Positions 13,173 to 56,460 of a stretch of 64,000 nt of DNA are shown one piece after another; position 1 is the first letter of the stretch; each line of letters opens with the position of its first letter. The position numbers and the translations under genes were made by a program. The notes beneath the pieces were generated by a model. That model was not told the origin of the DNA. It was given only the letters and a program-made list of their open reading frames with translations, and made no database searches. This DNA comes from an uncultured Candidatus Binatia bacterium (GTDB taxonomy: Bacteria; Desulfobacterota; Binatia; UBA9968; JAJDTQ01), in assembly GCA_958295985.1 (NCBI GenBank), contig OY282432.1, positions 3,815,001 through 3,879,000 of the forward strand, written 5' to 3'.

Positions 13173-14327
13173 ATGTCGAATCTCTCGGGCAAATACGCCA
13201 TCGTGGGCGTGGGCGAGACGAAAGTTGGCAAGCGGCCCGAAGCCACCACCAACTCGCTGCATCTGGAGGCGATCCGCGCCTGCCTGGAGGACGCCGGAGT
13301 CGACGCGTCCCAGGTGGACGGGTTCCTCACCAACCAGCCCCTGACCGACGCCCACCGGAGCTACGCGGTGCGCCTGGCGCACATGGCGGGCATCGATCCC
13401 AACTACGCCACCGATCTGGCCCTGGGGGGCGCCACCCCCATCGCCATGATCCAGAACGCGGTGATGGCCATCGAGGCCGGCATGGCCAACTACGTGGTGT
13501 GCGTCCACGCACGGAAACGGGCGACGCCGGATCCCACGCCGGGTTATCCCATTCGCAGCGGCGACGAGCACTGGGAGCAGCCCTGGGGCCATTTCTCCGC
13601 GGTGGCCAACCACGCGTTCGCGGCCACGCGCCACATGCACGAGTTCGGCACCACCAGCGAGGACCTGGGGCAGATCGCGGTGTCCACGCGCAAGCACGCG
13701 TGCATGAACAAGAACGCCACCATGCAGAAGCCCATGTCCATCGAGGACCATCAGGCGTCGCGCATGATCGTGGAGCCGCTGCACCTGTTCGACTGCTCGC
13801 TGGAGTCGGACGGCGGCGCCGCCCTGCTGGTGACCAGCCTGGAGCGGGCCCGGGATCTGCCCACGAAGCCGGTGACGGTGTTGGGCATGGGGCAGCACCA
13901 CCCGCATTCCAGCGTGATGGACGCGCCCACCCTCACCACCCTGGGGAGCCGGAAATCTTCCGAGCTGGCGTACCGCATGGCCGGGCTCGGGCCCAGGGAC
14001 ATGGACTTCGCCCAGATCTACGACTGCTTCACCATCACCACGATGATCACCATCGAGGACTATGGTTTCTGCGGCAAAGGCGAGGGCAAGGATTTCGTCA
14101 AGGACGGCCGCATCGAGGTGGGCGGCGAGATCCCCGTGAACACCCACGGCGGACTGCTCTCCCAGGCCCATCTCGAGGGGATCATGCACGTCACCGAGGG
14201 CGTCAAGCAGTTACGCGGCAACGCGGTGGAGCCGGAGCGGCAGGTGCAGGGTGCCCGGGCGGGCATCATCAGCGGCCACGGCGGCAGCCTGTGCATGCAC
14301 GCATCACTCGTATTGGGGGTACAATGA
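13173..14327 (+). CDS. Thiolase-like protein lacking the nucleophilic Cys (SCPx/Ltp2 type)
   Basis: A 384-residue thiolase-fold protein. The N-terminus (YAIVGVGETKVGKRP) and C-terminal NTHGGLLSQAHLEG with RQVQGARAGI match the lipid-transfer-protein thiolase group. Where true thiolases have the nucleophilic Cys (CASG-like), this protein reads ALGGATPIAM, so Claisen-type acyl transfer through Cys is unlikely. Known Cys-less relatives such as Ltp2 act as retro-aldolases with a DUF35 partner; the next gene encodes exactly such a DUF35 protein and overlaps by 4 nt (ATGA). I infer a two-protein aldolase or acyl-condensing complex acting on a CoA thioester. AAGGAG lies before the ATG. Confidence 0.88.
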   Translation: MSNLSGKYAIVGVGETKVGKRPEATTNSLHLEAIRACLEDAGVDASQVDGFLTNQPLTDAHRSYAVRLAHMAGIDPNYATDLALGGATPIAMIQNAVMAIEAGMANYVVCVHARKRATPDPTPGYPIRSGDEHWEQPWGHFSAVANHAFAATRHMHEFGTTSEDLGQIAVSTRKHACMNKNATMQKPMSIEDHQASRMIVEPLHLFDCSLESDGGAALLVTSLERARDLPTKPVTVLGMGQHHPHSSVMDAPTLTTLGSRKSSELAYRMAGLGPRDMDFAQIYDCFTITTMITIEDYGFCGKGEGKDFVKDGRIEVGGEIPVNTHGGLLSQAHLEGIMHVTEGVKQLRGNAVEPERQVQGARAGIISGHGGSLCMHASLVLGVQ

Positions 14328-27208: not shown

Positions 27209-28192
27209 ATGCTCCGAAAATCAGCGACGGCGTGGCTGGCCGCCGCGGTGCTGGCGGCGGCGACGACGGCCGCGGCTCAGCCCATCGGCTACCAGGCGGT
27301 GCCGCGGGACGCGTTTCCGGTCTTCGACGACCCCGAGATGCTGAGCGCCGCGGAGGCGGAAAAGCAGGAGGTCATCTTCGACCGGGACGTGATCATCGGC
27401 GTGGCCCACAACGGTGCGGCCAAGGCGTACCCCATTACCATCATGGGCGTCCACGAGCTCGGCAACGACACCATCGGAGGGGTGCCCATCGCCGTCTCCT
27501 GGTGACCCTTGTGCCAAACGTCTATCGTGTATAGACGCAAACTCGACGACAAGGTGCTGAGCTTCGGACACGCAGGTATCCTCTACGAGAACTCGTTCAT
27601 CATGTACGACCGGCAAACGGAATCGCTTTGGGTCCACGTAACCGGGGAGGCGGCGTTCGGTCCGCTCAAGGGGAAGCGGCTGGAGTTCATGCCGTCCACC
27701 GTAACGAGCTGGGCGAACTGGAAGGAGAACTATCCCCGTACCCAAGTCCTGCCGGGGTACCGGCGCGGGGGGTTCATGGGGACCTACGTCGGCCCCTTCC
27801 AGAGCGACATCCTCGGACTCGCGGTGGTCGTCAAGCTCAAGGGCAAGCTCTACCCCTACCGGGTGCTCGAGCGGCAGAACGTGGTGAACGACGAGTTCAA
27901 CGGGGCGAACGTGGTGGTGTACTACTCGCCCGGCGATGCAACCGCGACGGCCTGGCGACGGGAACTCGACGACCGTGTGTTGACGTTCGGGCTATCGGAC
28001 CGCAAGGATGGTCAGGGCAACGTGCTGTTGCGCGACAAGGAGACGGGAAGCCTGTGGTCGTGGCTGCGCGGAGAAGCCGAGGAGGGCCCCCTCAAGGGAC
28101 GGAAACTCCGACAGCTCCTGTACAACCCGATCCTGAACGACCGCTTTGTCGCCTTCTATCCGGGCGGGCCGGTGTTCGATATCATGAACTAG
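27209..28192 (+). CDS. DUF3179 family protein, predicted selenoprotein with in-frame TGA as selenocysteine
   Basis: Read through the TGA at 27503-27505, this is one 327-residue exported protein. A signal peptide (residues 1-22) is followed by DUF3179. The family motif around its CxxC reads GGVPIAVSW-TGA-PLCQTSIVYRR, so residue 99 falls on the first Cys of the CPLC motif and becomes U-x-x-C. The downstream part (228 codons) is intact, in the same frame, and carries the rest of the family pattern (VLSFG, MYDRQTESLW, GPLKGKRL, TVTSWANWK). A second copy of that pattern near residues 250-310 reflects an internal duplication, in which UPLC aligns with SPGD. A stem-loop resembling a bacterial SECIS follows the TGA. 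GAGGTGA precedes the ATG. Alternative: a nonsense-mutated pseudogene. The biochemical function of DUF3179 is unknown. Confidence 0.88.
27503..27554 (+). promoter_or_regulatory. Candidate bacterial SECIS element after in-frame TGA
   Basis: Immediately after the TGA the RNA can fold into a two-part hairpin. The apical stem CGTCTAT/ATAGACG (27519-27525 with 27531-27537) is perfect and closes a 5-nt loop CGTGT with G at the second position. An outer stem CCTTGT/ACAAGG (27507-27512 with 27549-27554) is also perfect. Twenty nt separate the TGA from the loop, within the spacing known for bacterial SECIS elements. The stem is built from codons such as TCT, TAT and AGA that are rare in this GC-rich window, suggesting selection on the RNA. 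Confidence 0.8.
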
Positions 28193-55212: not shown

Positions 55213-56460
55213 ATGCTCGATAGTCTGCTGAAAAACGTGGAACAGCGCACCGGCTATTTCGGCGCCTACGGCGGCGCCTTTACGCCGGAGATCCTGCGCA
55301 CGACCCTGGACGAGTTGATCGCGGCCTTCGAAGATGCGCGCAAGGACCCGTCGTTTTGGGAAGAGTTCCGGGCGGTGATGCAGTCCTACTCGTGCCGGCC
55401 CACCCCCATGACCTACCTCGGGAATCTGAGCGAAACCCTCGGTGGCCCGGGGATATACATGAAGCGGGAGGATCTCAACCAGACCGGCTCGCACAAGATC
55501 AACAACGTCATGGGCCAGGGCCTGCTGGTGGCGCGCATGGGCAAGAAGCGCGTCATCGCCGAGACCGGCGCCGGGCAACACGGCGTCGCCACCGCCACCA
55601 TGGCCGCCCGGCTGGGACTCGCGTGCACCATCTACATGGGCGCCGTAGACGTGGAGCGGCAACGCCCCAACGTGTTCTGGATGGAGCAGCTCGGGGCGGA
55701 AGTGGTTTCGGTGGAAGACGGCTCCGCCACCCTGAAGGACGCCATCAACCAGTGCCTGCGGGACTGGGCCTTCTCCATGGACGACACCCACTACGTCCTG
55801 GGAACCGCGTGCGGGCCGCACCCGTTTCCGCAGATCGTCGCGTATTTCCAGCAGGTCATCGGGCAGGAATGCCGCGAGCAGATGATCGCCGCCACGGGCC
55901 GTCTGCCGGACCGCGTCTATTGCTGCGTCGGCGGCGGCTCCAACGCCACCGGCACCTTCCTGGGCTTTCTCGATGACGCCGGCGTGGAACTCGTGGGGAT
56001 GGAGGCCGGCGGCGAAGGGCTCGACTCGGGCCGGCACGCCGCCCGCCTGGCAGGCTCCGACGGCAGTCCCGGGGTGGCGCAGGGCTACAAGACCTACTTT
56101 CTCCAGGACCACGAAGGCCAGATGCGCCATACCCATTCCGTGGCCGCCGGGCTTGACTACATCGGGGTGAGCCCGATCCTGGCCTGCCTGCGGGAGAGCG
56201 GACGGGTCCGGTTCGAGGCGGCGACCGACGACGAGGTCCTGGAGGCGCTTCAGACGCTGCTGCGCCGCGAAGGCATCGTCGCCGCGCTGGAAAGCGCCCA
56301 TGCCGTGGCCGGCGCCATCCGCGAGGCGCCGCGCATGGGCCGGGACCAGACCGTCCTGATCACCCTGTCCGGCCGGGGCGACAAGGACATCTTCACCATC
56401 GCCGAGGCGTTGAACGACCCCGGCTGGCAGCGGTTCCTGCTGCGGAAAGCCGGGCGTTGA
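55213..56460 (+). CDS. trpB: Tryptophan synthase beta chain
   Basis: A 415-residue PLP enzyme converting indole and serine to tryptophan. The start YFGAYGGAFTPEIL is typical, the PLP Lys is Lys95 in TGSHKINN, and the phosphate-binding GGGSNATG is present with TGAGQHGVATA. The ATG at 55213 gives the canonical N-terminus; the TTG at 55132 is part of the promoter region. Its stop overlaps the TTG start of trpA. No other trp genes are nearby. Confidence 0.96.
   Translation: MLDSLLKNVEQRTGYFGAYGGAFTPEILRTTLDELIAAFEDARKDPSFWEEFRAVMQSYSCRPTPMTYLGNLSETLGGPGIYMKREDLNQTGSHKINNVMGQGLLVARMGKKRVIAETGAGQHGVATATMAARLGLACTIYMGAVDVERQRPNVFWMEQLGAEVVSVEDGSATLKDAINQCLRDWAFSMDDTHYVLGTACGPHPFPQIVAYFQQVIGQECREQMIAATGRLPDRVYCCVGGGSNATGTFLGFLDDAGVELVGMEAGGEGLDSGRHAARLAGSDGSPGVAQGYKTYFLQDHEGQMRHTHSVAAGLDYIGVSPILACLRESGRVRFEAATDDEVLEALQTLLRREGIVAALESAHAVAGAIREAPRMGRDQTVLITLSGRGDKDIFTIAEALNDPGWQRFLLRKAGR

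Follow-up and report, generated by a model that had tools for sequence, protein, structure and literature searches.

The DUF3179 Gene and Its Reading Frame

The window, the 64,000-nucleotide stretch of DNA analyzed here, derives from the 4.29 Mb genome of a sponge-associated Binatia bacterium and contains a gene of the DUF3179 family (Table 1). The gene starts with ATG, directly preceded by a ribosome-binding-like AGGTG, ends with TAG (28190–28192), and is read in one frame with one internal TGA, which in the translation stands between AVSW and PLCQTSIVY. An earlier note on this DNA had described a DUF3179 frame open on both sides of a single TGA; the coordinates and the codon are as described there, and the Pfam match to DUF3179 (PF11376; E 3.9e-71, 240 bits against a gathering cut-off of 27) crosses the TGA. 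A general change of the genetic code, which the same note had dismissed, is excluded because TGA is an ordinary stop elsewhere in the window: in addition to the two stops named in the note (14325–14327 and 56458–56460), five of six neighboring genes that were checked end in TGA. A scan of the window for further frames with a TGA followed by a hairpin yielded 11 candidates, and a redox-type motif at the TGA occurs in the DUF3179 gene only.

Table 1. Features of the DUF3179 locus (positions in the window)
Feature	Position	Strand	Remarks
DUF3179 selenoprotein gene (predicted)	27209–28192	+	327 residues, Sec at residue 99; range includes the TAG stop
Probable N-terminal signal peptide, MLRKSATAWLAAAVLAAATTAAAQ	27209–27280	+	Reading by eye; N-terminus of low confidence in the AlphaFold2 model
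First beta domain, residues about 55–181	27371–27751	+	Carries Sec99; predicted fold Rieske-like
Predicted selenocysteine codon (in-frame TGA), residue 99	27503–27505	+	First position of U-P-L-C; TGA/Cys column
TGC of second, possibly resolving Cys, residue 102	27512–27514	+	Last position of U-P-L-C; Thr in many homologs
SECIS-like hairpin, CGUCUAU-CGUGU-AUAGACG	27519–27537	+	7-bp stem with covariation; no such stem in Cys homologs
Second beta domain, residues about 200–320	27806–28168	+	Internal duplicate of the first domain; S-P-G-D in place of U-P-L-C

Selenocysteine Machinery of the Genome

The earlier note had proposed a search of the genome for selA, selB, selC (tRNA-Sec), and selD, and all four are present. 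The selA, selB, and selD genes are consecutive at G000:C1:763053-767101 (starts at 763053, 764231, and 766175; profile scores of 505, 376, and 377 bits, respectively), and tRNA-Sec, with a TCA anticodon, is located at C1:3492205 (73 bits). The selD gene of this genome (L020) contains, close to its start, an in-frame TGA, as do many selD genes in the wider sample, and SelD itself is therefore predicted to be a selenoprotein.

Across the class, 46 of the 148 genomes searched contain DUF3179. The TGA form is carried by 23 genomes of the class and, by a count from the tables, 22 of these have a good selA. The exception is G138, in which selA, selB, selD, and tRNA-Sec were all looked for and none was found, despite the presence of a TGA copy. 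In G136, another member of its genus, a distance of only about 3.3 kb separates selA from tRNA-Sec on one contig; a single contig missing from the G138 assembly could thus account for the absence of these genes. G138 is rated 100% complete, and its TGA-bearing DUF3179 gene (L051, G138:C192) is accompanied by the hairpin.

Conservation of Column 99 and Selection Downstream of the TGA

The earlier note had placed the TGA at the first Cys of the CPLC motif of the family, and the alignment of homologs bears this out. Of 46 distinct homologs, 27 are encoded with TGA at column 99 and 19 with a Cys codon, and intact relatives have only Sec or Cys at this position. The only other residue is Tyr, which occurs in a visibly broken copy with further stops (L060); with that exception, none of the findings that the note had named as telling against selenocysteine (absence of the Sec machinery, a read error, other residues at this position) was encountered. 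Among the Cys, Sec, and His columns of the alignment, residue 99 alone is invariant. The second Cys of the motif (residue 102) is replaced by Thr in many relatives, which leaves the first position as the only one that the family requires.

Each of the nine available genomes in the genus, including that of the window, has the TGA copy with its frame intact, which indicates that the TGA within the DUF3179 frame is not due to chance. Beyond the genus, the same TGA recurs in further families belonging to this order and class, as well as in SAR324 genomes. Codon comparison on the 3′ side of the TGA gave dN/dS values of 0.07–0.18 within the genus and 0.15–0.22 against two of three SAR324 relatives, the third comparison being saturated. 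These low values indicate constraint at the protein level downstream of the TGA.

A pseudogene or sequencing error, in which a nonsense mutation or a miscalled TGC or TGT would leave only a short peptide, has in its favor that TGA differs from TGC/TGT by one base and that the assembly is of the metagenome type. Conservation across independent assemblies in practice refutes this explanation, whose probability is negligible: the TGA recurs throughout the genus, elsewhere in the order and class, and in SAR324; the dN/dS values for the segment downstream of it (0.07–0.22) are low; and the hairpin that follows covaries.

The SAR324 genes (L030, L031, L032) are the nearest relatives outside the genus, being 67–69% identical and having the same TGA and hairpin, and transfer of the DUF3179 gene between SAR324 and the lineage of the window is possible. 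A very divergent DUF3179-like protein (L075, G108:C355) has a TGA in an AVC context (U-A-V-C), which suggests a further Sec subgroup. The maximum-likelihood tree requires four Sec/Cys changes (bootstrap range 3–4); its well-supported branches are compatible with one origin.

SECIS-Like Hairpin

Bacterial SECIS elements are stem-loops that lie just after the UGA and have a small apical loop containing G (PMC1088965). The earlier note had combined the Sec frame with a SECIS-like hairpin, and a hairpin that agrees with this description in its position and in its apical-loop G is located in the gene (Table 1): it begins 13 nt after the TGA, and G occupies the second position of the loop (CGUGU).

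In 17 distinct Sec sequences, 92.4% of the cells in the stem alignment are paired and 15 cells are changed on both sides, with such changes affecting four of the seven stem pairs. None of 500 shuffles reaches the observed paired fraction, number of doubly changed cells, or covariation score, and sliding the stem by 1–3 bases leaves at most 48% of cells paired. All 17 sequences of this hairpin type have CGUG in the loop, and one C-A mismatch is present in the stem in 9 of the 17 aligned Sec relatives. The full stem is absent from the 19 distinct Cys-form sequences compared (18 with Cys, and the broken copy with Tyr). The I-V-Y codons also constrain this stretch, yet the paired changes are not explained by the codons.

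Taken alone, the hairpin is only mildly unusual and constitutes weak evidence, because a perfect 7-bp hairpin is found at the equivalent position after 10 of the 1539 TGA triplets in the window and because the stability of the 51-nt segment that follows the TGA does not exceed that of shuffled sequences (z −0.23); in several members of the genus, another pairing gives the minimum-energy fold. The comparative evidence, which consists of covariation among the aligned sequences, argues strongly for the hairpin. The hairpin is not shared by Sec members at a greater distance (UTLC, UPLT, and UAVC types), which may use another stem.

Decoding of the TGA as Trp or Cys, via a code change or plain read-through without Sec, would be consistent with a frame that is kept past the TGA regardless of the residue inserted. 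A code change is rejected by the use of TGA as the normal stop of neighboring genes, column 99 in the relatives holds Cys and not Trp, the Sec system of the genome is complete, and the hairpin is SECIS-like and lost in Cys forms; this explanation is accordingly very improbable. Selenocysteine at the TGA, as the earlier note had proposed, is strongly supported by the Sec machinery, the Sec/Cys-only column, the constraint past the TGA, and the covarying hairpin. On this sequence evidence, the product of the gene is almost certainly a selenoprotein, with Sec at the in-frame TGA, and belongs to the known DUF3179 family.

Domain Architecture and Predicted Fold

The two halves of the protein align with each other in hhalign (probability 99.9, E 2e-31). 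The DUF3179 subfamily of the window is a tandem internal duplication (27371–28168) in which the Sec/Cys motif is confined to the first copy. The AlphaFold2 models are confident (pLDDT of 89 for the whole protein and 93 for domain 1 alone). When the models were compared using VIA-align, all 50 matches listed were of the Rieske type, both for the whole protein (best Z of 8.7 over 98 residues) and for domain 1 alone (best Z of 8.1), and Rieske-fold chains are the only matches listed for either copy of the domain. These Z values are middling, and the Foldseek E-values of the predicted models for the same Rieske chains exceed 0.08. The region of fold resemblance covers 27284–27772, where the cluster ligands are absent.

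The likeness to Rieske ferredoxins and NirD is at the level of the predicted fold only. Whereas those proteins have a [2Fe-2S] ligand motif, no conserved C-x-H … C-x-x-H motif of this kind is present in the DUF3179 alignment, and hhalign against Rieske domains, including those of the genome itself, gave a probability below 1% and hence no detectable sequence kinship. Because the profile comparison with the Rieske domains of the genome found nothing, the resemblance is one of predicted folds. Among solved structures, searched by sequence, no homolog of the DUF3179 protein was detected, and no joint mention of DUF3179 and Rieske proteins was found in the literature searched. A placement of UPLC at the Rieske cluster loop, made by eye, was dropped, as the ranges given by the aligner do not support it.

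A tentative model, to which somewhat less than an even chance is assigned, is that DUF3179 represents a derived Rieske-like fold that may have lost its iron–sulfur ligands and may now serve in thiol/selenol redox chemistry through one essential Cys/Sec; in the subfamily of the window, the domain would be tandem-duplicated, with the first copy alone active. An unlikely alternative is that Sec is inserted into a protein whose main role is electron transfer by a bound metal or cofactor in a derived Rieske-like domain, with Sec99 as a ligand, and not thiol/selenol catalysis. Such a carrier would fit the Rieske-fold chains listed for both models and the Cys/Thr variability of residue 102, as might be seen in a non-resolving residue, but the Rieske ligands are missing, residue 99 is the sole invariant Cys/Sec/His column, kinship with Rieske domains is undetected by hhalign, and the structural scores are modest.

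Proposed Function of the DUF3179 Selenoprotein

The product is most likely a thiol/selenol redox protein, probably exported, with Sec99 as the nucleophile. By analogy with established bacterial Sec biology, SelB carrying Sec-tRNA(Sec) would bind the hairpin and insert Sec at codon 99. The signal peptide, recognized by eye, points with moderate confidence to export of the product, which would then act, at a similar level of confidence, as a thiol/selenol oxidoreductase in which Sec99 provides the nucleophile. Cys102 could form a selenenylsulfide with Sec99 but would be dispensable in the family, since many relatives have Thr there. The gene neighbors give no functional hint, either in the genus (an SDR, an aminotransferase, a RodZ-like protein, and a GntG-type aldolase) or in SAR324 (flagellar-type genes and others), and in the literature searched, where three papers mention DUF3179, no activity of the family was found.

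Relation to Known DUF3179 Proteins

The earlier note knew of no described selenoprotein in this family and regarded the locus as the most likely undescribed system in the window. The first statement is wrong and the claim of novelty fails with it: both PMC9312934 and PMC13188914 include DUF3179 (PF11376, UxxC/T) in their tables of selenoproteins, and the former credits it to Zhang and Gladyshev (2007), from an Olavius algarvensis symbiont. The DUF3179 selenoprotein records named in these two reviews are MBW1804167.1 and MDJ0986319.1. Since the family has counted among the selenoproteins for years, the gene adds a good example to a known kind and does not represent a new system.

The tabulated selenoprotein belongs to the same Pfam family, and its reported UxxC/T motif matches the UPLC of the window and the UPLT of relatives. 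As far as the descriptions in these reviews allow comparison, the tabulated protein comes from another host lineage, whereas the relatives found here are named Candidatus Binatia, and the subfamily of the window differs in having a second, internally duplicated domain. The Cys forms from the same class (CPLC/CPLT) belong to the same family but have a Cys codon in place of the TGA in column 99 and no SECIS-like hairpin there. The family is also annotated in haloarchaea, including haloarchaeal plasmid records, a likeness at the level of the family.

Significance

The results settle the annotation of a gene that standard gene callers would split or truncate at the TGA. They extend a poorly studied selenoprotein family to the Binatia and SAR324 lineages and make available for DUF3179 a clean Sec/Cys series together with a covarying SECIS. 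The UPLC, UPLT, CPLC, and CPLT series constitutes a set of natural variants for finding the activity of DUF3179.
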